Shown here: piece after piece, positions 15,258-53,540 of the stretch
How positions within the stretch are numbered: the first letter of the stretch is position 1
How the letters are laid out: every line of letters begins with the position of its first letter
Source of the DNA: a virus
Direction: 5' to 3' (one strand)
DNA length: 58,377 nt
Virus record (IMG/VR): IMGVR_UViG_3300022723_000109
Coordinates: 1-58,377 of that record
The notes under the pieces: model-generated
Told to the model about the DNA's origin: nothing
What the model saw: the letters and a program-made list of their open reading frames with translations, nothing else
The model's database searches: none
Translations under genes and position numbers: made by a program

Positions 15258-15466
15258 GACTTCTCCGGGAGCATGCCGAGCTTCCGCGCCGCGCGGCTGA
15301 GCGCACGGTTGACGACGTCGAGGTCGCGGATCACGAAGGCTCGGTCGTTGCCGAGCTGCTCGTGCTGCTCGGCGATGATGGTGAGGCCGTCGGAGATGCG
15401 GCGGATGAGCAGGCGGGCCTCGCGTTCGCGGGCTTCGTGCTCGGGCTTGCGGTCGCGTCTCTTCAT
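15254..15466 (-). CDS. Small coiled-coil protein
   Basis: A 70-residue highly charged helical protein (MKRRDRKPEHEAREREARLL). It is the first gene of a two-gene leftward unit embedded between rightward operons. No family recognised. A leftward terminator lies just upstream (15503-15549), so its promoter must lie between 15467 and 15502, or a readthrough product is used. Confidence 0.5.
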   Translation of the reverse strand: MKRRDRKPEHEAREREARLLIRRISDGLTIIAEQHEQLGNDRAFVIRDLDVVNRALSRAARKLGMLPEKS

Positions 15467-15502
15467 GGCACTCTCTCCATCGTCACGGCGACGCTCGCGA
15501 CT

Positions 15503-15549
15503 GAAGAAAAACGGCCCGCACCCCTGAGAGCTTCGAGGGCGCGGGCCGT
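15503..15549 (-). terminator. Rho-independent terminator, leftward
   Basis: ACGGCCCGC and GCGGGCCGT form a 9-bp perfect stem. On the minus strand it is followed by TTTTTCTTC. This is a textbook intrinsic terminator facing left, yet no protein gene lies upstream on that strand before 15960. Confidence 0.7.
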
Positions 15550-15962
15550 CGGCGCGAGATGCTCCCGAGGGTGGCAAGCCCTCGCACCTTCAGGAGGAAC
15601 ATGATGGCTTCGGGGGTCCCTAGTCCCCTCAGCCGGTCCCCTCCAGCCTACCCGAGAGATCGAGATCCGGGGGGAGAAGCTCAAGGTCGCCGGGGAGCTT
15701 GGCCGAAGGGGGAGGCTTCAACCCGAGTCGGCCCCCCCGCCCTCGGCCCTCGTCGGGGCCCTTCATGGCGGAAGCTCGGCAGGGGAGGCACGGCTCCGGA
15801 CATCGGGGTCGGCGGCGAAGGCTGCCGGCCCCTCGCCCTGCAGGCGGGGCGCGGCTCGAGCCCGGAAGATCCTTCCCGATCTGACCGAGCCCTAACGAAG
15901 TCGGTGCAGAAACCGAAACGAGCTTCAGGGCGATCCCCCTTCAGGTCGACGAAGGGAGTGCC
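15550..15962. other. Non-coding stretch, candidate leftward small-RNA region
   Basis: Frames here are Pro/Gly/Arg-rich and not protein-like, although AGGAGG precedes an ATG at 15601. A small hairpin (CGAGGG at 15566 with CCCTCG at 15579) and one GGCTCGAGCC palindrome at 15853 are present. Because a strong leftward terminator ends at 15503, a minus-strand RNA of a few hundred bases is possible. Confidence 0.4.
15853..15862. repeat. GGCTCGAGCC palindrome 7
   Basis: Exact copy in the non-coding stretch 15550-15962. Confidence 0.9.
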
Positions 15963-45064: not shown

Positions 45065-46417
45065 TTAGACCTCTTGCACCACGACGCGCGGATCGCCGTC
45101 GACCGGGTGCGCGAGGTAGACGTAGTACCCTAGACCATCGGTAAGGTGGGTCCAGAGCTTGTCGCGCTTGTCGAGCTCGCCGCCGGTGCCCTCCAGGACG
45201 ATCACGCTCTCCAGGTCGTCGCAGAGGTTCGGGCACGCCTCCGGGCAGACGAGCAGGCGGATCGTCCCGTCGGCGGAGAGGAGCCGCGAGTTCACGGCGT
45301 TCACGCGGGTCCGCTCCGCGGGGTTCGAGCGCTCGTAGTCGAAGAAGACGCGGCCGCCGAACTTCGCGCGGAGGATCTTCTTGATCAGGTCCCAATCGGA
45401 CCCCTCGGTCTGAGCCGTGCCGCGCGCGCCGCCCGTCGCGTCGCCGTAGCACCGGACCTCGCCGGCGTGGTGGCCCCACAACTGCACGAGCCGCTCGGTC
45501 ACGCGCGGGGTCGTCGAGTCGTGCGGGATGTAGACCTCGCCGATGCAGGCGGTGATCCGTGCGGCGACGCGCGGGTCGACACCCTGGTAGAGCTGCTCCT
45601 GGCACACGACGGCGACGCCAGGGTCGACGTTGAAGTCGAAGCAGAAGATGAGCGGCTTCTGCGGGTCGTACCGGAGGATCTCGCGGGCCTGCGTCTCGCG
45701 GTCGAAGCCGTAGTACGCCTGGCCCTTGATGTTCTTGAAGCTCGCCTCCCATTCGATCGCCCACGTCAGCGGGTCGGTCGTCGCCTTCGCGCTCTCGATC
45801 TCGTCGGCGGGGAGGACGCTCGCGCTCGTCCAATGGAAGTAGGCGTGATCCGCGACCTTCGGGTTCTTCGCGTGATTGACGAGATCCTTGTAGTGCTTGC
45901 CTCCGCGCGGCACGCCGTAGACCCACGCACGACCAGGTCGCCCCATCGTTCCGAGCGCGGGGCGCACGTGCTTCGGCCAGACGTGCGGCTTCATGTCGCC
46001 GAACTCGTCGACGAAGGCCCAATCGAGAGGACGACCCTCGGCTCGAGCCGGCTTGTCCATCCCGAGCACTTCCCAGGTCGTCCCGTTGACGCCGAGGATC
46101 TGCAGCTTCGACTCGCGGATCTTGCGGATGAAGCGCTCGGGGATCAGCGCCTTCAGGTCGTCCCAATAGATGTCGTGGGCCTGGTCGCGCGTCGGCGCCA
46201 TGAACGAGACGCGGTAGTCCGGCCATCGGTCGTTCGAGAGACCGACGACGACGCCCTTGCGCTTCGCGAGCATCGTCTTCCCGGAGCGGCGTCCGCACGG
46301 CGCGACGTTGATCCGGATCTCCGAGCTCCAGAGACGTTGCTGCTCGTCGTGGTGATCGACCGGCGTCCACGCCGGAGTCAGCGCACCGGGCTCGGCTGGA
46401 GCTGCCGCCGGCGTCAT
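45065..46417 (-). CDS. Terminase large subunit
   Basis: The 450-residue protein has Walker A CGRRSGKT (42-48), Walker B LDWAFVDEFGD with D137-E138, and the RNase-H-like nuclease start FCFDFNVDPG with D261 and D265. A later ECF-like DxxG (GDATGG) follows. It is the ATP-driven packaging motor and DNA-cutting enzyme. It starts in an ATGA overlap with a 58-residue gene. Confidence 0.92.
   Translation of the reverse strand: MTPAAAPAEPGALTPAWTPVDHHDEQQRLWSSEIRINVAPCGRRSGKTMLAKRKGVVVGLSNDRWPDYRVSFMAPTRDQAHDIYWDDLKALIPERFIRKIRESKLQILGVNGTTWEVLGMDKPARAEGRPLDWAFVDEFGDMKPHVWPKHVRPALGTMGRPGRAWVYGVPRGGKHYKDLVNHAKNPKVADHAYFHWTSASVLPADEIESAKATTDPLTWAIEWEASFKNIKGQAYYGFDRETQAREILRYDPQKPLIFCFDFNVDPGVAVVCQEQLYQGVDPRVAARITACIGEVYIPHDSTTPRVTERLVQLWGHHAGEVRCYGDATGGARGTAQTEGSDWDLIKKILRAKFGGRVFFDYERSNPAERTRVNAVNSRLLSADGTIRLLVCPEACPNLCDDLESVIVLEGTGGELDKRDKLWTHLTDGLGYYVYLAHPVDGDPRVVVQEV
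46040..46049. repeat. GGCTCGAGCC palindrome 16
   Basis: Exact copy in the terminase gene, just before Walker B, Ala-Arg-Ala frame. Confidence 0.9.
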
Positions 46418-46590: not shown

Positions 46591-46658
46591 GGAAGAGCCG
46601 TACCGAAAACCGACGAGCGGCTCAAGGTGCGAGCATCGCCTTCCCGATAGGTGGGGAC
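46591..46658. other. Divergent promoter region between late and plus-strand blocks
   Basis: This 68-base gap must hold the leftward late promoter as well as the rightward box at 46621. The leftward side reads TCGGTTTTCGGTACGGCTCTTCC before the ATG, without a consensus -10. Confidence 0.4.
46621..46651 (+). promoter_or_regulatory. Repeated upstream box (copy 1)
   Basis: CTCAAGG, 3 bases, then GAGCATCGCC, 4 bases, then CGATAGG, ending 7 bases before the ATG at 46659. The same order recurs at 47121, 48876, 49252 and 52940. GATAGG probably marks the -10 of a strong early or phage-specific promoter. Confidence 0.6.
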
Positions 46659-46928
46659 ATGAAGCTCACCCTCACCATCGAGAACGACCGCCCCCGGGTG
46701 CACGTCGTCGGCGAGTTCTTCGGCGACCGCGTCATCCTCACCACCTACCCGCGCACGTCGACGACGTCGCTCGGCCGCGACCCCGACCTCACGGTCGGCG
46801 AGAAGCGCGTCGCCCTCGGCGACAACCTGCCGGCCTCCGCGCTCAACCTGCTCCCGCACCGCTTCGAGGGAGACCTCAAGGCGTGGGCGCCCCTGCTCCG
46901 CGAGCTCGTGCGGCTGGGGGCGATCTGA
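46659..46928 (+). CDS. Small hypothetical protein
   Basis: An 89-residue protein beginning MKLTLTIENDRPRVHVVGEF. Beta-rich first half, helical second half. It has no Shine-Dalgarno and lies 7 bases after promoter box 1, so translation may be leaderless. Its stop overlaps the next start (TGATG). No family recognised. Confidence 0.6.
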   Translation: MKLTLTIENDRPRVHVVGEFFGDRVILTTYPRTSTTSLGRDPDLTVGEKRVALGDNLPASALNLLPHRFEGDLKAWAPLLRELVRLGAI

Positions 46929-47110
46929 TGCTCGCCGACTGCCCGAAGTGCGCCGCCGAGATGGCGGTCGAGTACGAGGACGAGCAGACGATGCAGACGT
47001 GCCGGTGCGCCGAGTGCGGCGCGCGCTTCGAGGTCGAGGCCGACGCCGACTTCAACGGCGACCACTTCGTCGACTGCTCCACGCCCGGGAAAGAACTTCC
47101 TCCCGCGTAA
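46928..47110 (+). CDS. Small zinc-ribbon protein
   Basis: A 60-residue protein starting MLADCPKCAAEMAVEYEDEQ, with CRCAECGARFEVEADADF following. The CPxC...CxxCG ribbon with acidic flanks is like many small transcription-factor or MJ0042-type zinc ribbons. Likely a zinc protein with an unknown partner. Confidence 0.6.
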   Translation: MLADCPKCAAEMAVEYEDEQTMQTCRCAECGARFEVEADADFNGDHFVDCSTPGKELPPA

Positions 47111-47120
47111 AACCGCGAAC

Positions 47121-47153
47121 GGCTCCAGCCGCGAACGTCGCCACGCCGATAGG
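47121..47153 (+). promoter_or_regulatory. Repeated upstream box (copy 2)
   Basis: GGCTCCAGCCGCGAACGTCG, CCACG, CCGATAGG, 22 bases before the ATG at 47176. This copy has a longer leader with a Shine-Dalgarno (CAGGAGAAG). Confidence 0.6.
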
Positions 47154-47175
47154 GTTCGGTACAGGAGAAGCAATC

Positions 47176-47673
47176 ATGACCACGACCACCGAAAAGACCG
47201 CCGCCATCCGCACGCAACTCAAGGCCCACGGCTGGAGCTCCCGCAAGGTGAGCGTCCGCGCCGAGCGCTGCACCTACTCGTCCTCGATCGAGGTCCGCAT
47301 CAAGGACCCCGAGGTCAACATCGACATCGTCCGCGACGTCGTCGATCAGTACGAGTCGGTCCGCCGCTGCGAAGTGACGCACGAGATCCTCAGCGGCGGG
47401 AACACCTTCACGCACGTCAGCTACACCCGGGAGGCCCGCGAGGCTCTCGCGGGCCCGCACGTCGAGGCGCTGCGCGCCGCGATGGCGAAGGTCGACGAGC
47501 TCTCCGACTCGACGCTCGTCGAAGTCGACGGGACCGAGGGCAAGGTCTCCGTCGGCAAGGACGGCGTCGGCGGATACCGGCTCTGGACCGATCGCGCCGG
47601 CATGCACGTCAATACGCCCGAGTGCGGCGCCTTCTTCGTCGCCGGCTACGTCCGCGGCTGGAAGGTCCAATGA
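47176..47673 (+). CDS. LPD29-like polyvalent-protein-type domain
   Basis: The 165-residue protein reads TAAIRTQLKAHGWSSRKVSV, SSSIEVRIKDPEVNIDIVRD, then SGGNTFTHVSY. The L-K-A..G.SSRKVSVR...I.V.IKDP..d...v pattern is the LPD29 domain seen in phages and plasmids, often within large polyvalent proteins. Function unproven; association with anti-restriction or conjugation-like systems is known for related domains. Confidence 0.6.
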   Translation: MTTTTEKTAAIRTQLKAHGWSSRKVSVRAERCTYSSSIEVRIKDPEVNIDIVRDVVDQYESVRRCEVTHEILSGGNTFTHVSYTREAREALAGPHVEALRAAMAKVDELSDSTLVEVDGTEGKVSVGKDGVGGYRLWTDRAGMHVNTPECGAFFVAGYVRGWKVQ

Positions 47674-47978
47674 GCGCCCGCAAGCGCCAGAAGGCGAAGC
47701 CGCCCGGCCTGGACCGCAAGGCCCTCGTCGGGCGGGTCGTCCGCTTCACCGACGCGAACCGAGGCGGCACGCGCTGCGGCGTCGTTCGCCAGGTCGCACG
47801 CAACTCGAAGACGATCGTCGTGCAGCTCCCGGGAGGTCCGAAGCAGCTCGACGGCTCCACGTTCTCCGCCCGCTGCCGCGGGCAGCGCTGGCGCGTCGAC
47901 GTCGACCAGGTCGCCGGCATCGTGGACAAGCGCGCGACGGGCGGCCTCCGCTCCCTGCCCTGGACGCTTGACTCGTGA
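47670..47978 (+). CDS. Hypothetical basic protein
   Basis: A 102-residue protein starting MSARKRQKAKPPGLDRKALV. A basic tail is followed by an SH3-like beta barrel pattern (VGRVVRFTDANRGGTRCGVV). It overlaps the neighbours by ATGA and GTGA. It may bind DNA or RNA. No family recognised. Confidence 0.55.
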   Translation: MSARKRQKAKPPGLDRKALVGRVVRFTDANRGGTRCGVVRQVARNSKTIVVQLPGGPKQLDGSTFSARCRGQRWRVDVDQVAGIVDKRATGGLRSLPWTLDS

Positions 47979-48916
47979 GGGTCTTCGCCTCCGGCCTCTC
48001 TCGCCCCGGGAACGCTCGCCCCTTCTTGTGGGCCGGCGCGCCCGTGGGCGCCGTCGCGGGTGAGCTCTCGCCGCGGATGATCGCCGAGCTCGCGCAGTAC
48101 GCCGAAGCGGGCGGCCGCGTCTTCGTCGACTCGGGCGCCTTCTCGACCTGCTCGCGCGGCCTGGCCGTCGACTCCCCCGCGATCCTCGCGACGTACCGCG
48201 AGCTCGGCCGAGCGTGCTCGTGCGCTGAGCGGATCGAGGTCGTCGCGCCGGACGTGGTCGGCGACCAGGCGGCGACCCTGGAGCTCCTGCGGATGCACGC
48301 CGACGACCTGGCGGAGCTCGTCGACGTCGGCCTCACCCTGCTCGTGCCGCTGCAGAAGGGCTCCCTCTCCGGCGCTGATCTCCTGCAGGCGACGCGCGAC
48401 GCGGTCGTCGACCTGCCCTTCGTGCCGGCGGTGCCATTCAACCTACACGCCTGGAGCGACCTCGATGTCGCGGAGTTCGCGAACGCGACCCGCATCGAGC
48501 GCGTGCACCTACTCGGCGCGAGCGGCAAGAAGCTCGCGCGCGTGGCCGAGCTCATCGACGTCGAGGTCGAGCTGCAGGGCGACGCGAACCGGGCTCGAGC
48601 CTGGCTCGGAACGTACCCGACCGCGAAGCTCGGCCGCGTCGGTCGCAAGGTGCGCCGCGTCATGGCCGAGACGCTCGACCTCGCGATCGACGAGTACGGG
48701 CGCGACGTCGACGGCGGAGCGTGGACCGAGGACGGCGCCGAGTGGGATGCGCTCGTGCAGGACGTGAAGGACGAAGCGCTCTGGCTCCTGGCGCTGCAGG
48801 AGCTCGGGGACCTGGCGCTGGCCCGGAGGCTGGCTCCGACCCCCTACCTCGCCCGTGCGGGGATCCTGGAATCTCCTCAAGGGCCGAACGTCGCCAGGCC
48901 GATAGGTGCGGCATGA
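47975..48916 (+). CDS. TGT/DpdA-like TIM-barrel enzyme
   Basis: A 313-residue protein from GTG. Key segments are GGRVFVDSGAFSTCSRG with D52-S-G-A-F, then VVAPDVVGDQAATLELLRMH, LLVPLQKG, and a late HLLGASGKK. The D-S-G-A/G-F and P-D...T-L-E-L...Q layout fits tRNA-guanine transglycosylase-related proteins. Phage DpdA types of this family place 7-deazaguanines in DNA. The zinc site of true TGT is not visible. A DNA C5-methyltransferase gene lies 700 bases downstream, in line with DNA modification. Confidence 0.55.
   Translation: MRVFASGLSRPGNARPFLWAGAPVGAVAGELSPRMIAELAQYAEAGGRVFVDSGAFSTCSRGLAVDSPAILATYRELGRACSCAERIEVVAPDVVGDQAATLELLRMHADDLAELVDVGLTLLVPLQKGSLSGADLLQATRDAVVDLPFVPAVPFNLHAWSDLDVAEFANATRIERVHLLGASGKKLARVAELIDVEVELQGDANRARAWLGTYPTAKLGRVGRKVRRVMAETLDLAIDEYGRDVDGGAWTEDGAEWDALVQDVKDEALWLLALQELGDLALARRLAPTPYLARAGILESPQGPNVARPIGAA
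48592..48601. repeat. GGCTCGAGCC palindrome 17
   Basis: Exact copy in the TGT/DpdA-like gene, Arg-Ala-Arg-Ala frame. Confidence 0.9.
48876..48906 (+). promoter_or_regulatory. Repeated upstream box (copy 3)
   Basis: CTCAAGGGCCGAACGTCGCC, then AGG and CCGATAGG, ending 6 bases before the ATG at 48913. It lies inside the 3' end of the TGT-like gene. Confidence 0.6.
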
Positions 48917-49251
48917 AGCAATCGACCACCACGACCGAGATCCTCGAAGCCCTGGAGATCCTGAAGCGCCAAGCGCAGCGCACCGTCTGCGCGGGCGGAG
49001 TCATCGAGCGCCCGGAGGCGGAGCGGATGGCCGAGTTCGAGGCGGAGGTCGTCCGCAGGGGCGACGAGCGCCGCCTGCTCGGCCTGCGCGACGAGTACGG
49101 CGTCCCGATCTACGACGCCGCCGACGTCGACGAGATCGTGCGGATCCAGCCGCGCCCGGGCCTCTCCTCGCGCGACTGCGATCTCTGCCGGTCGCCGCTG
49201 AGCCACGAAGAGGCAGACCGCGGGTCGCTCTGCGATTCCTGCGAAGACTAG
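48913..49251 (+). CDS. Hypothetical protein with C-terminal zinc ribbon
   Basis: A 112-residue protein starting MKQSTTTTEILEALEILKRQ. A helical body ends with CDLCRSPLSHEEADRGSLCD and SCED, a CxxC...CxxC zinc site. It has its own upstream box and lies 6 bases after it. No family recognised. Confidence 0.6.
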   Translation: MKQSTTTTEILEALEILKRQAQRTVCAGGVIERPEAERMAEFEAEVVRRGDERRLLGLRDEYGVPIYDAADVDEIVRIQPRPGLSSRDCDLCRSPLSHEEADRGSLCDSCED

Positions 49252-49282
49252 CTCAAGGTCGGAGCATCGCCACGCCGATAGG
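49252..49282 (+). promoter_or_regulatory. Repeated upstream box (copy 4)
   Basis: CTCAAGGTCGGAGCATCGCC, ACG, CCGATAGG, ending 7 bases before the ATG at 49290. Only 1 base separates it from the preceding stop, so the whole gap is the promoter-like element. Confidence 0.6.
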
Positions 49283-49289
49283 GACCACC

Positions 49290-49592
49290 ATGAAGCAAGA
49301 GCAAGCACTCGCGCTCGCGCGCGACCTCAAGGCCCGCACCACCGTCCAGCGCCGGCGCGTCGAAGACGCTGAGCGCGAGCGTCTCGCCGCGCGGCCGGAC
49401 GCCTCGAAGCTCCGCCAGGTCGACGAGCGTCTCGTGACGCTGCGCTTCGAGCTCGCCGAGACCCTTCTCTCTCTGAGCATGGCGCGCCGCGACGCCGGCG
49501 ACCACGAGGGCGCGCTCGACGCGGCTCGTCTCTTCTCCGAGCAGGAGCATCTCGCGCGCACCACGCGCGACAACCTGGCGAGGGTCGTCTGA
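49290..49592 (+). CDS. Small coiled-coil protein upstream of methyltransferase
   Basis: A 100-residue helical protein starting MKQEQALALARDLKARTTVQ, with heptads throughout. Its TGA overlaps the methyltransferase ATG, so both are translated together. It could help the methyltransferase or be independent. No family recognised. Confidence 0.6.
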   Translation: MKQEQALALARDLKARTTVQRRRVEDAERERLAARPDASKLRQVDERLVTLRFELAETLLSLSMARRDAGDHEGALDAARLFSEQEHLARTTRDNLARVV

Positions 49593-50536
49593 TGCTGCGC
49601 GTCGTCGACTACTTCGCCGGCTTGGGAGGATCCTCTCTCGGAGCCGAGCGCGCCGGCATGAAGGTCGTGCTCTGCGCGAATCACTACGGGCCCGCGGTCG
49701 ACACGCTGCGCCACCACCACCCGAGCGCGCAGTTCGTGACGCAGGATCTCCGGCAGTACGATCACGCGCTCGCCCCCGAGCACGACGTCTTCATCGCCTC
49801 GCCCGAGTGCAAGGGGCACGCGGACGCCGGCAACGGCGCGCGCGGTCGGTGGGGCCTGGACTACTCGTACCACGACGCGAGCCGCGCGACGGCTTGGGCC
49901 GTGGTCGACGCGATCGAGGCGAACCGCCCGCGCTACGCGGTCATCGAGAACGTCGTGCGCTTCCGCGAGTGGTCGAAGTTCGATCTCTGGACCGAGTCCA
50001 TCCGCCGCGACGGGTACGACCTCAAGGTCGAGGACATCAACGCGGCCGACCTCGGCGTCCCGCAGGACCGGCTCCGCATGTTCGTCGTCGCCTGGCGCCA
50101 CGGCGAGCAGGAGCCCGACATCAGCGTCGCCGCTCGACCTGAAGCCGAGTGGACGCCGGCGAGCTCGATCGTCGACGTCGAGGGCGGCGACCGGTGGGCG
50201 CCCGTGAGCTCGAAGAGCGCGGCCGTGCAGTCGCGCGTCGCGAACGGTCGGCGCAACGTCGGCGAGGTCTTCATCTCGCAGCACGTCACGAATCACCCGG
50301 GACGCTCGATCGACCGGCCGCTGCCGACGATCACGACCCGGGATCAGCTCTGCATCGTGAACGGGGACCTCATGCGGCCGCTCTCCTGGCAGGAGTACCT
50401 CGCGGCGATGGGCCTTCCGTCCGACTACCACGTCGCCACGAAGAGCAAGAAGAAGCTCGTCCTCATGGCCGGGAACGCCGTGTGCCCGCCCGTGTCCGAG
50501 CACGTTCTCACCCGAGTCGCGGAGGCCGCAGCATGA
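49592..50536 (+). CDS. DNA cytosine-5 methyltransferase
   Basis: The 314-residue protein has the C5 set: motif I DYFAGLGGSSLGAERAG (6-22), motif IV ASPECKGH with catalytic C73 (the usual P-C-Q is P-E-C-K), motif VI VIENVV with E119-N120, motif VIII VPQDRLRMF (157-164), and motif X LMAGNAVCPPVS near the end. The target-recognition region is short. It would methylate a specific cytosine and shield the phage genome from host restriction. No partner endonuclease is seen. Confidence 0.88.
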   Translation: MLRVVDYFAGLGGSSLGAERAGMKVVLCANHYGPAVDTLRHHHPSAQFVTQDLRQYDHALAPEHDVFIASPECKGHADAGNGARGRWGLDYSYHDASRATAWAVVDAIEANRPRYAVIENVVRFREWSKFDLWTESIRRDGYDLKVEDINAADLGVPQDRLRMFVVAWRHGEQEPDISVAARPEAEWTPASSIVDVEGGDRWAPVSSKSAAVQSRVANGRRNVGEVFISQHVTNHPGRSIDRPLPTITTRDQLCIVNGDLMRPLSWQEYLAAMGLPSDYHVATKSKKKLVLMAGNAVCPPVSEHVLTRVAEAAA

Positions 50537-51090
50537 GCGCCAAGAAGAAGACCGAACCGAAGGAGATCAAGCCGTTCGTCGCGCTGCTCGTGTACGCCGG
50601 CGTCGGCATCGGGGCCCGCGGAACGCAGCTCCACGTCTACCACGAGCTCGCCGTGCGTCGGAACCTCAAGAAGGGCATCGACGTCGACGAGTGGCTCGCT
50701 GACGGCCACGTGCGCCAGCTAATCCAAGAGGTCGAGGGGCACGAGCGCCTCAACGAAGGCGTCGGCTGGAAGAAGGTGATCGGCCACACGCGCCAGGTCG
50801 GCGCGATCCTGACCGTCGAGTGCGAGGACAAGAGCGCGAGCACGATCTACGCGGGCACCGGCACGAGAGTCGGCGAGGTCGACGACCAGGTCGCCGCCGA
50901 GTGGCAGGCAGCGAGCTCCGGCTGCGAGGTTGAGCTCCAGGTCGAGCGCGATCGCCGCAAGGAGAAGAGCGTCGACCACCTAGCGGAGCAGCTCGCGCCC
51001 GTGCGCGAAGCGTACAAGCGACTCCGCACGAAGGCCCAACGCGCCGCCATGCTGGCGGCCGTCATCGAAACCGTTACCCGAGGAAGCTGA
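50533..51090 (+). CDS. Hypothetical protein
   Basis: The 185-residue protein starts MSAKKKTEPKEIKPFVALLV (ATGA overlap with the methyltransferase). A first half with mixed alpha/beta content is followed by a helical end (LAPVREAYKRLRTKAQRAAM). The next gene is coupled by TGATG. No known domain; the three-gene coupling suggests a shared regulatory setting. Confidence 0.6.
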   Translation: MSAKKKTEPKEIKPFVALLVYAGVGIGARGTQLHVYHELAVRRNLKKGIDVDEWLADGHVRQLIQEVEGHERLNEGVGWKKVIGHTRQVGAILTVECEDKSASTIYAGTGTRVGEVDDQVAAEWQAASSGCEVELQVERDRRKEKSVDHLAEQLAPVREAYKRLRTKAQRAAMLAAVIETVTRGS

Positions 51091-51767
51091 TGTCGAAGAC
51101 GATGAAGATCACGACGCCGGTCGACGTGCCGGCAGAGCTGCTAGCGACGATGACGGTCGCGTGCTTGGCGGGGAGCCCCGTCTACCACGTGACCGATCGA
51201 GACGCGAAGCACGGCGGGGGCACGTGGCGCCCGCTCTGCACCCCCGACCACTCGGGAGGCGACGGTGCGCGCCACGCTGCGCGCGAGCTCGCCAGCTTCC
51301 ACACGTACCGGCTCTGCCGCGCGTGCGTCGAGGCGATCGTCCCCGAGGAGCTCTACAACCTGGAGGACGTCGAGGAAGGGGACACCCTGGTCCGCGAGTT
51401 CTGGCGGGGAGGGAAGGAGCTCGTCTCGTGCTCCAAGAAGACGGCGAAGACCGTGTTCGTCAAGAGCTACCGCTACCAGGCGAAGGACGGCCGTCCGGCT
51501 CGGGTCGAGGGCGGCCGCGGCCGGGTGCGCAGGCCGAAGCCCGGCGAGGCGACGGCGATGATCGACGAGGGCATCGCGCGGCAGACGAAGCGCGACCGCG
51601 AGGAGCGCAGCCGCAAGAAGCAGCACGCGGCCGATCTGCGCTGGCTCCGGATGGCGGTGCGTGCCGCCGGCGACGAGCTGCTCGACGAGATGCTGCGCAA
51701 GATGACGAGCGGGTACGAGCCGTCCGAGATGCGCGAACTCTTCGAGGACCGCGTCCCGACCGAGTGA
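51090..51767 (+). CDS. Hypothetical zinc-site protein
   Basis: The 225-residue protein starts MSKTMKITTPVDVPAELLAT. It has C-x(n)-C pairs and histidines in the first 90 residues (SFHTYRLCRACVEAIV), then a basic Arg/Lys-rich linker and a helical end. It probably binds a metal in its N-terminal half. Function unknown. A GGCTCGAGCC palindrome follows 5 bases after its stop. Confidence 0.55.
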   Translation: MSKTMKITTPVDVPAELLATMTVACLAGSPVYHVTDRDAKHGGGTWRPLCTPDHSGGDGARHAARELASFHTYRLCRACVEAIVPEELYNLEDVEEGDTLVREFWRGGKELVSCSKKTAKTVFVKSYRYQAKDGRPARVEGGRGRVRRPKPGEATAMIDEGIARQTKRDREERSRKKQHAADLRWLRMAVRAAGDELLDEMLRKMTSGYEPSEMRELFEDRVPTE

Positions 51768-51772
51768 GGCCG

Positions 51773-51782
51773 GGCTCGAGCC
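51773..51782. repeat. GGCTCGAGCC palindrome 18
   Basis: Exact copy in the gap between the 51.1 kb gene and the barrel lipoprotein gene. Confidence 0.9.
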
Positions 51783-51797
51783 CGCGCCCGAGATTCT

Positions 51798-51826
51798 CTC
51801 AAGCACCGAACGCCCCGGAGCCGATG
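51798..51826 (+). promoter_or_regulatory. Degenerate upstream box (possible copy 6)
   Basis: CTCAAGCACCGAACGCCCCG, GAG, CCGATG keeps the CTCAAG, CCGAACG and CCGAT blocks of the repeated box but lacks the final AGG. It precedes the barrel lipoprotein gene by 40 bases. Confidence 0.4.
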
Positions 51827-51865
51827 CCCGGGGACCACTCTTCACCCTGGCCCAAGGAGGGCACC

Positions 51866-52441
51866 ATGCAACGCACCATCATCTCGCTCGTCACGGCCGC
51901 GCTCGTCGCGCTGATCGGCACGAGCTGCATCGCAGGCAAGGACGGCTCGGCCAAGATCGCCCCGTTCGCCATGATCCAGGATCGGTCCGGTCTCGGCGAC
52001 GCAGGCGACATGACCGGCGGAGGCGTGTACGCGACCTGGCGCGAGAAGGACGCGAAGATCGCGAGCGAGGTCTCGATCGCCTACACGGGCGGCAGCGAGG
52101 ACGACTTCGACGCCGGGCCGCTCGGCACCTTCGACATCGACACGCAGTCGCAGGAGATCGCGCTCGGCGCGAGGTACGACTTCGGGACCGCCGCCGGCGT
52201 GACGCCGTTCTTCGGAGCGGGCGCGCTGATCCAACGCGCGGAGGCCGACGGCGGGGGTGACGACGACGAGGACGTCAGCTTCGGCGGGTACGCTCAGCTC
52301 GGGATCGACTGGCAGGTCACGCAGCGGATCGGGATCATGATCGCCGGGCGCTACGGGAACGGAACCGACTTCGAGCTCGGGGACGAGGACGTCAGCGCCG
52401 AGCACGTCGCCGGCATCTTGGGGATCACCTTCAGCCCGTGA
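51866..52441 (+). CDS. Outer-membrane beta-barrel lipoprotein
   Basis: The 191-residue protein begins MQRTIISLVTAALVALIGTS with C21, a lipoprotein signal peptide, and AAGGAGG upstream. The mature part has alternating strands (VASEVSIAYTGGS-like, EIALGARYDFGTAAGVTPFF, QLGIDWQVTQRIGIMIAGRY), ending GILGITFSP with a terminal aromatic-type strand. This is the size and pattern of an 8-strand OmpX/Lom-like barrel. In phages such proteins alter the cell surface or block superinfection. Confidence 0.65.
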   Translation: MQRTIISLVTAALVALIGTSCIAGKDGSAKIAPFAMIQDRSGLGDAGDMTGGGVYATWREKDAKIASEVSIAYTGGSEDDFDAGPLGTFDIDTQSQEIALGARYDFGTAAGVTPFFGAGALIQRAEADGGGDDDEDVSFGGYAQLGIDWQVTQRIGIMIAGRYGNGTDFELGDEDVSAEHVAGILGITFSP

Positions 52442-52462
52442 GGCTCGGAGGGTGAGGGGAGC

Positions 52463-52510
52463 GGGCCCCGGCCGGTGGAAGAGATCCGCCGGACGGGGCC
52501 CATCTCTTCC
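52463..52510. terminator. Bidirectional hairpin between convergent genes
   Basis: Two nested inverted repeats: GGGCCCCG (52463) with CGGGGCCC (52494), and GGAAGAGAT (52477) with ATCTCTTCC (52502). They fill the gap between the converging barrel and DUF1353 genes and probably end transcription from both sides. Confidence 0.55.
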
Positions 52511-52515
52511 ACGCG

Positions 52516-52908
52516 CTACGCGCTCGGGTTGAGCTTCCGGAAGAGCTGGCCGAGCACGGGGATCCGGATGAGGCCCGAGTAGAGCCGGACCGCGGCGTAC
52601 ATGGGGACGCGCTTCCATGCGGGCACGCCCTGCTCCCGCATGACGCGCAGGAAGACGCCGTCGGCATCCGAGCGCGAGATCCCTCCCCCCCCGCTCGTGT
52701 GCCAGTCGTGAAGGACCGCCGCCTCGGTGTAGGCGCCGCCCATCTTCGGCACGAGCCACGTGAGGAGCCGCGGGGCGCTCGCTCCGTCCGTCTCGAAGCC
52801 CTCCGGGACCGCCCAGCTCTCCCGGCTCCCGCGGTACTGCAGGGGCGCCAGGAGCCGCCAGCGCTCCAGGCCGACGCGCCGGACGTCGAGAGGGGTCTCG
52901 AAGGGCAT
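52516..52908 (-). CDS. DUF1353 family protein
   Basis: A 130-residue protein from ATG 52908. It contains WAVPEGFETDGASAPRLLTW and YTEAAVLHDWHTSGGGGISR, the P-x-G-F-x-T-D-x-A-S and A-A-x-x-H-D-x signatures of DUF1353, common in phage lysis and tail-end regions, function unknown. It is a lone minus-strand gene among plus-strand ones. Confidence 0.75.
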   Translation of the reverse strand: MPFETPLDVRRVGLERWRLLAPLQYRGSRESWAVPEGFETDGASAPRLLTWLVPKMGGAYTEAAVLHDWHTSGGGGISRSDADGVFLRVMREQGVPAWKRVPMYAAVRLYSGLIRIPVLGQLFRKLNPSA

Positions 52909-52939
52909 GCCGGCCAGGCTGGCGGATTCCGGGGAAGGG

Positions 52940-52970
52940 TTCAAGGCCCGACCGTCGCCGACCCGATAGG
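52940..52970 (+). promoter_or_regulatory. Repeated upstream box (copy 5)
   Basis: TTCAAGGCCCGACCGTCGCC, GAC, CCGATAGG, ending 7 bases before the ATG at 52978. Confidence 0.6.
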
Positions 52971-52977
52971 TTTCAGC

Positions 52978-53298
52978 ATGAGCGAGCAAGAGAAGCCCAA
53001 GCGCGAGCCCGTCGGGTTCGTGATTCCCTGGACCGACCACAAGGGCCGCGAGTGCGCCGACTGCGTCTGCGTCGAGTGCCTCAAGGACCCCGAGACCGCA
53101 GCCGTGTACGGCACGGGGACGGGCAAGTTCGAGCCGGTCTACTACGTCGAGCTCGAACACGACGACCCCGAAGATCCCGAGGCGTGCTCTCTCTGCGGCG
53201 CGGAGCTGCAGGAGCGAGAAGAGCCGCCCATGACCCGCGAGGACTACCTCGCTGAAGAAGCGGACCGGCTCTGCAGCGAGCCCCGCGAGGAGTGGTAA
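52978..53298 (+). CDS. Hypothetical protein with cysteine clusters
   Basis: A 106-residue acidic protein starting MSEQEKPKREPVGFVIPWTD. Cysteines occur in CADCVCVECLKDPE and CSLCGAELQ, a probable zinc or iron-sulfur site. It is transcribed from its own box and followed 2 bases later by another gene. No family recognised. Confidence 0.6.
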   Translation: MSEQEKPKREPVGFVIPWTDHKGRECADCVCVECLKDPETAAVYGTGTGKFEPVYYVELEHDDPEDPEACSLCGAELQEREEPPMTREDYLAEEADRLCSEPREEW

Positions 53299-53300
53299 CG

Positions 53301-53540
53301 ATGGAGATCCGACCCGACCAGGCCCGAGCGATCAACGACCTCCGGACCGCGTCGCGCAAGCTCGCCGAGCTCTTCCGCGAAGCTGGCAAGAAGGGCATCG
53401 CGACGCAGATCGAAGCGACGGCGCGCGAGGCGCGCGAGGAGTTCGATGCGCTGAAGGAGGAGCTCTACAACGCGCCGCCGTGCGCGCTCTGCCAGAGCAA
53501 GGACCACGGCGCCGACGAGTGCCCGCACGAGGGGAGCTGA
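53301..53540 (+). CDS. Small helical protein with zinc knuckle
   Basis: A 79-residue protein from ATG 53301. A long charged helix is followed by CALCQSKDHGADECP, a CCHC-like knuckle (C-x2-C-x4-H-x4-C). It probably binds single-stranded nucleic acid or a protein. TGATG coupling with the next gene. Confidence 0.6.
   Translation: MEIRPDQARAINDLRTASRKLAELFREAGKKGIATQIEATAREAREEFDALKEELYNAPPCALCQSKDHGADECPHEGS

Follow-up and report, generated by a model that had tools for sequence, protein, structure and literature searches.

Phages are generally described as using promoters of the housekeeping sigma factor or as relying on a sigma factor or polymerase of their own, and the early promoters that temperate and lytic phages carry in several copies are usually of the sigma-70 type. 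In textbook sigma-28 promoters, TAAA and GCCGATAA are separated by about 15-16 bp. The FliA/WhiG consensus, found for example in the WhiG regulon of Rubrobacter, combines a TAAA -35 element with a -10 element of GCCGATAA (PMC8325347), and the sigma-28 promoter of Chlamydia reads TAAAGWWY-N11/12-RYCGAWRN (PMC8762339). A further repeated element, the start-associated sequence (SAS) of Cluster K mycobacteriophages, is the 13-bp GGGATAGGAGCCC, which has an AGGAG Shine-Dalgarno (SD) core and lies 3-7 bp from the start codon (PMC3203893).

The DNA analysed here, hereafter the window, is the whole stretch of a 58,377-bp virus record (GC 68%) that represents a novel siphovirus. Its structural genes lie on the minus strand, and small non-structural genes, including those for a C5 DNA methylase and an outer-membrane barrel, are clustered on the plus strand at 46.6-53.5 kb, right of the terminase gene (Table 1). 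Within this cluster are five near-identical copies of a 31-bp box, all on the plus strand, with the consensus CTCAAGG-N2-CGANCRTCGCC-N3-CCGATAGG. On the strength of sequence comparisons, these boxes are probably (probability about 0.6) promoters of the sigma-28 (FliA/WhiG) type, each serving a single unit and used by the host RNA polymerase.

Table 1. Coordinates of the boxes, the degenerate boxes and the associated genes in the window
Feature	Position	Strand	Sequence	Content or context
Structural module (siphovirus)	45065-46417 (terminase)	minus		Terminase, portal, major head protein, tape measure
Box 1	46621-46651	plus	CTCAAGGTGCGAGCATCGCCTTCCCGATAGG	ATG 46659 begins 7 nt on
Unit 1	46659-47110	plus		89-aa ORF, then overlapping 60-aa zinc-ribbon-like ORF (46928)
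Box 2	47123-47153	plus	CTCCAGCCGCGAACGTCGCCACGCCGATAGG	22-nt leader with SD, then ATG 47176
Unit 2	47176-48916	plus		ORFs 47176 (165 aa), 47670 and 47975 (313 aa); starts overlap
Box 3	48876-48906	plus	CTCAAGGGCCGAACGTCGCCAGGCCGATAGG	Within 3' end of ORF 47975-48916, overlapping its last codons; ATG 48913 6 nt on
Unit 3	48913-49251	plus		112-aa ORF without assigned function; start overlaps unit 2 stop
Box 4	49252-49282	plus	CTCAAGGTCGGAGCATCGCCACGCCGATAGG	ATG 49290 begins 7 nt on
Unit 4	49290-51767	plus		100-aa ORF, C5 cytosine DNA methylase (49592-50536), ORFs 50533 and 51090; starts overlap
Degenerate box	51798-51828	plus	CTCAAGCACCGAACGCCCCGGAGCCGATGCC	Upstream of beta-barrel gene, then SD-bearing leader
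Unit 5	51866-52441	plus		Outer-membrane beta-barrel protein, lipoprotein-like signal (PF13505, 2.4e-08)
Box 5	52940-52970	plus	TTCAAGGCCCGACCGTCGCCGACCCGATAGG	ATG 52978 begins 7 nt on
Unit 6	52978-53540	plus		106-aa ORF, then ORF 53301-53540
Degenerate box	15476-15506	minus	CTTCAGTCGCGAGCGTCGCCGTGACGATGGA	ATG 15466 begins 9 nt on

All five copies claimed in an initial sequence-only reading are present, in one fixed register and without indels; the position given for the second, 47121, is corrected to 47123. At up to 3 mismatches, the 31-bp box had 0 matches in 100 dinucleotide-preserving shuffles. With a 31-column matrix the five boxes score 40-45 bits; elsewhere in the 58 kb no site exceeds 18.7, and the best of 40 Markov windows reaches 20.3. 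This genome-wide scan thus finds no equal match inside genes, a result that would have spoken against the sequence-only reading. A matrix of the -35 and -10 parts alone gives 22-27 for the boxes, compared with 14.4 for the rest of the window and 16.4 for the reversed window. CCGATA is present in all five boxes, preceded by G in three and by C in two, and the -35 element is TCAAG in 4/5, one substitution from TAAA(G). The two are 17 bp apart (TCAAG-N17-CCGATA).

The boxes are laid out as promoters for successive operons are. The gene starts at 46928, 47670, 47975, 48913, 49592, 50533 and 51090 overlap the preceding stop and that at 53301 lies two bases after one, whereas five starts in the cluster are separated (46659, 47176, 49290, 51866 and 52978). 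Of the separated starts, 4/5 have a full box before them, against 1/8 of the overlapping or abutting ones (p 0.03); if the degenerate copy at 51798 is counted, the figures are 5/5 and 1/8 (p 0.005). As had been described, four copies stand close to an ATG, with GATAGG ending 7, 6, 7 and 7 nt before 46659, 48913, 49290 and 52978, and copy 2 has a longer leader, of 22 nt with an AGGAG-type SD, before ATG 47176. The description of the box ATGs as lacking an SD is fair overall, except that copy 1 has GGTGGGG. Since copy 2 retains its box although an SD is already supplied by the leader, the box does not serve as a ribosome-binding element. The RNA over the boxes shows no excess folding (z +0.6 to +1.2) and has no Rfam match.

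Several other features of the cluster were observed. The 313-aa ORF of unit 2 (47975-48916) has no relatives among IMG/VR viral contigs. The beta-barrel gene of unit 5 lies in a phage accessory region and could be a moron whose product acts on the surface of the host. A DUF1353 protein is encoded on the minus strand at 52516-52908 (PF07087, 5e-29), divergent from box 5.

Two degenerate boxes were also considered. The one at 51798, proposed earlier as a sixth copy, is indeed placed before a unit head, but its matrix score of 13.2 is at noise level genome-wide, such a score being reached in 9 of 40 null windows; its position upstream of the unit head is the main support for it. The other, at 15506-15476 on the minus strand, had been missed by the sequence-only reading and is the top non-box matrix match in the window (18.7). 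It precedes a two-gene unit consisting of a 70-aa ORF and a small protein whose N terminus is signal-like. Directly before it, a GC stem (GGCCCGC...GCGGGCCGTTTTT) with a T-run is visible by eye (window 15466-15600, minus strand); an automatic scan did not list this stem.

In the sigma-28 reading, CTCAAG would be the -35 element and CCGATAGG the -10 element of a FliA/WhiG-type promoter. Host RNA polymerase with a sigma factor of this family would bind the box, open the DNA at CCGATAGG and start transcription 6-9 nt past it. For four copies the start would fall at or adjoining the ATG, so that their messages would plausibly have no leader or almost none; for copy 2, transcription would start 5' of the SD-bearing leader. 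We infer that the boxes are active promoters, which sigma factor reads them and where transcription begins, as well as a diderm host resembling planctomycetes. The assignment to sigma-28 is favoured rather than proven because TCAAG and the 17-bp spacing deviate slightly. No plain sigma-70 promoter (TTGACA/TATAAT) was found in 45-54 kb of the window, which supports the earlier view that the promoter is of another kind.

The full 31-bp box has no match in IMG/VR viral contigs outside the window. Other phages keep just both ends, CTCAAG and, 15-17 bp on, CCGATA[A/G]G, with unrelated spacer sequences, so the conservation over more than 25 bases that had been emphasised applies within the window's phage and not beyond it. 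In these phages the -10 reads GCCGATA[A/G]G; the boxes of the window end in GG. The pattern CTCAAG-N16/17-CCGATA[AG]G-N6/7-ATG was found in 57 viral stretches of IMG/VR, versus 13 for a control with the -35 reversed, and several of the 57 are chance matches with a short ORF or none. Among 52 distinct viral matches the spacer is 16 in 40 and 17 in 12, and with the commonest layout 22 of 26 matches open an ORF of at least 40 aa. Counted per whole viral record and in one orientation, there are six copies in one 60-kb contig and four, three, three, three and three in others; the control had no matches in these multi-copy records.

In several other phages the box is followed by CATG and then by an AAGGGG/AGGAG-type SD and a second start 20-35 nt downstream, and two copies have an SD and no CATG. 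Because the spacers are unrelated and many copies have a downstream SD and second start, the element acts at a step before translation. Transcription may begin at the CATG behind the box, and this ATG is not necessarily the principal start codon; given the second, SD-bearing starts of these relatives, a box ATG may sometimes be merely an initiation region. In contigs L328, L329 and L327 the box is followed by RCATGAnC and then by an SD and second start 20-35 nt on, which may reflect a short leader peptide or a signature of initiation.

These observations also bear on whether the boxes could instead act in translation, in the manner of the Cluster K SAS, as an extended ribosome-binding site or a protein-binding site on the message. 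The 6-7 nt between four copies and their ATG would suit such a role, as would the GATAGG common to the boxes and GGGATAGGAGCCC and the location of both in non-structural regions. It is nevertheless improbable, since in copy 2 and in many of the relatives a separate SD and start lie further downstream, copies are rare at overlapping starts, and the boxes combine a -35/-10 geometry with the absence of an AGGAG core and of RNA structure.

The box-bearing viral contigs appear mostly unrelated to the window's phage. Detectable protein sharing between the comparison contigs and the window is confined to the methylase, in one contig, and to head genes, in L122. The C5 DNA methylases of the window (49592-50536) and of L329 (11106-12239) are 43% identical and box-adjacent in both phages. 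Among the IMG/VR loci compared, the nearest phage relatives by TerL have no boxes. A search of one literature library found no description of such a phage promoter class. Judged by these matches, the boxes are part of a wider class of putative phage promoters.

The conserved spacer, CGANCRTCGCC, appears peculiar to the window's phage and may be a relic of promoter copying or the operator of a co-ordinating regulator, the two being equally possible. A reading of its dyad, CGA-N3-TCG, as a strong palindrome was rejected; the arms are only 3-4 bp and the dyad fails in copy 4. Copies 1, 3 and 4 also share ATGAAGC downstream of the box, which fits duplication. That the boxes merely reflect the recent duplication of a gene-start cassette into five copies, with little selection on the box, would account for homology running past the box in these copies; it is extremely unlikely, because the downstream proteins look mutually unrelated on inspection, the flanks vary around a fixed -35 and -10, and the bipartite element recurs elsewhere. 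An array of operators or a partition-type site for a phage repressor, rather than the promoter itself, would explain the conserved spacer with its short dyad and the confinement of full copies to one region. Strict gene-ward orientation, a fixed distance to the ATG and the retention of both ends by unrelated phages that lack the spacer make this very improbable.

A promoter common to unrelated phages points to the host polymerase. The initial mechanistic proposal was right in kind, the element being promoter-like; its phage-specific sigma factor is not supported, as the element also occurs in bacterial genomes and in phages unrelated to this one, and the window encodes no FliA/WhiG sigma. Like the window, six of the seven other box-bearing contigs gave no match to this family, and among those ORFs of the window, a possibly incomplete record, that were scanned with Pfam, none had a sigma or RNA polymerase domain. 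The seventh comparison contig, G314 (the 82-kb virus record of L232), has a weak sigma-factor-like match (TIGR02479, 4.5e-12).

In bacterial genome contigs, a looser search with the full-length box gave one match, before a FlgI-domain gene of a Tepidisphaeraceae genome (Planctomycetota), and a second, bipartite copy in the same genome precedes an FlgG-like (FlgE/F/G-type rod) gene. Two flagellin genes lying in tandem in another planctomycete are each preceded by TCAAG-N16-CCGATA, and TAAAG-type versions are found upstream of other flagellin genes. Among ~290 planctomycete genomes, the full box is all but absent. Because base composition biases the reversed pattern in bacterial genomes, the control there was the pair at a wrong spacing (N26-27). 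Across 59 planctomycete genomes, the pair occurs 368 times at N16-17 versus 144 times at N26-27 (p 6e-8). A dependence of this enrichment on flagellin was rejected, the enrichment being the same with and without flagellin. Five flagellin-negative genomes without a FliA/WhiG match over the cut-off have 4 copies versus 13.5 expected (p 0.003); these genomes are small and few, and their right and wrong spacings stand at 4:4, which is not significant (ratio test, p 0.23). Over all 59 genomes the spacing ratio does not differ by FliA/WhiG status (342:133 in positive and 26:11 in negative genomes).

The boxes could also be promoters for another host sigma factor (ECF or a lineage-specific group 3 member), or for the housekeeping sigma factor assisted by a phage activator that binds the spacer. 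Consistent with this, the -35 and the spacing differ from textbook sigma-28, the spacer is kept over about 10 positions in the window's phage and contains CGA-N3-TCG, and the enrichment in Planctomycetota is independent of flagellin. This is rather unlikely, however, since CCGATA with a -35 of [A/T][A/C]AAG is a sigma-28 signature, both ends are kept without the spacer in other phages, and the pair also precedes flagellin, FlgI-like and FlgG-like genes.

The window shows synteny with the prophage region of one planctomycete genome (TerL 42%, tape measure 43%, portal and head protein) and partial structural synteny with a second; the TerL relatives that are closer (about 50%) belong to anonymous viral contigs. 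Annotated phages were of no use in assigning a host. Structural synteny and the outer-membrane barrel gene weakly suggest a diderm, perhaps planctomycete, host.

Separately, an exact 10-bp palindrome, GGCTCGAGCC, occurs in 20 copies genome-wide versus 0.49 expected, and none of 100 shuffles came near this number. The sites span 1978 to 57284 (e.g. 6322, 19224, 30425, 38955 and 51773), within and between genes and about 1-9 kb apart, with just six one-mismatch variants. The palindrome is absent from the prophage region of G156. From its distribution, it looks like a dispersed protein-binding site, a segregation or packaging signal, or a modification target.

It is possible, if doubtful, that unrelated phages tie batteries of small non-structural operons to a host sigma factor of the FliA/WhiG class, with a spacer operator adding a phage switch in the present case. 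If so, phage gene expression would be tied to the physiological state of the host, and such operons would be on only in a given state of motility, c-di-GMP or development. A recurring class would also provide a simple motif with which to map transcription units in GC-rich environmental phages without a cultured host.

The boxes can finally be set beside the known systems. Like the Cluster K SAS, they are repeated in one orientation just before the starts of small non-structural genes, share GATAGG and, in 4/5 cases, lie 6-7 nt from the start, in keeping with the 3-7 bp rule. Unlike the boxes, the SAS contains an SD core and lacks a partner element 17 bp upstream; by sequence, the boxes do not match the 13-bp GGGATAGGAGCCC with its AGGAG core. 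The likeness to sigma-28 promoters lies in the CCGATA -10 core, which agrees with GCCGATAA, in a [TA][CA]AAG-type -35, in a bipartite form whose spacer is free outside the window's phage, and in the occurrence before flagellar genes in Planctomycetota. The boxes depart from that consensus in having TCAAG instead of TAAAG, a spacing 1-2 bp longer and a final GG instead of A/AA, and from sigma-28 promoters in forming phage-borne arrays with, in the window's phage, a conserved spacer. As in the case of repeated phage early promoters, they would be multiple near-identical promoters of host type for short operons, but where those are usually of the sigma-70 type, the boxes have a sigma-28-like consensus.
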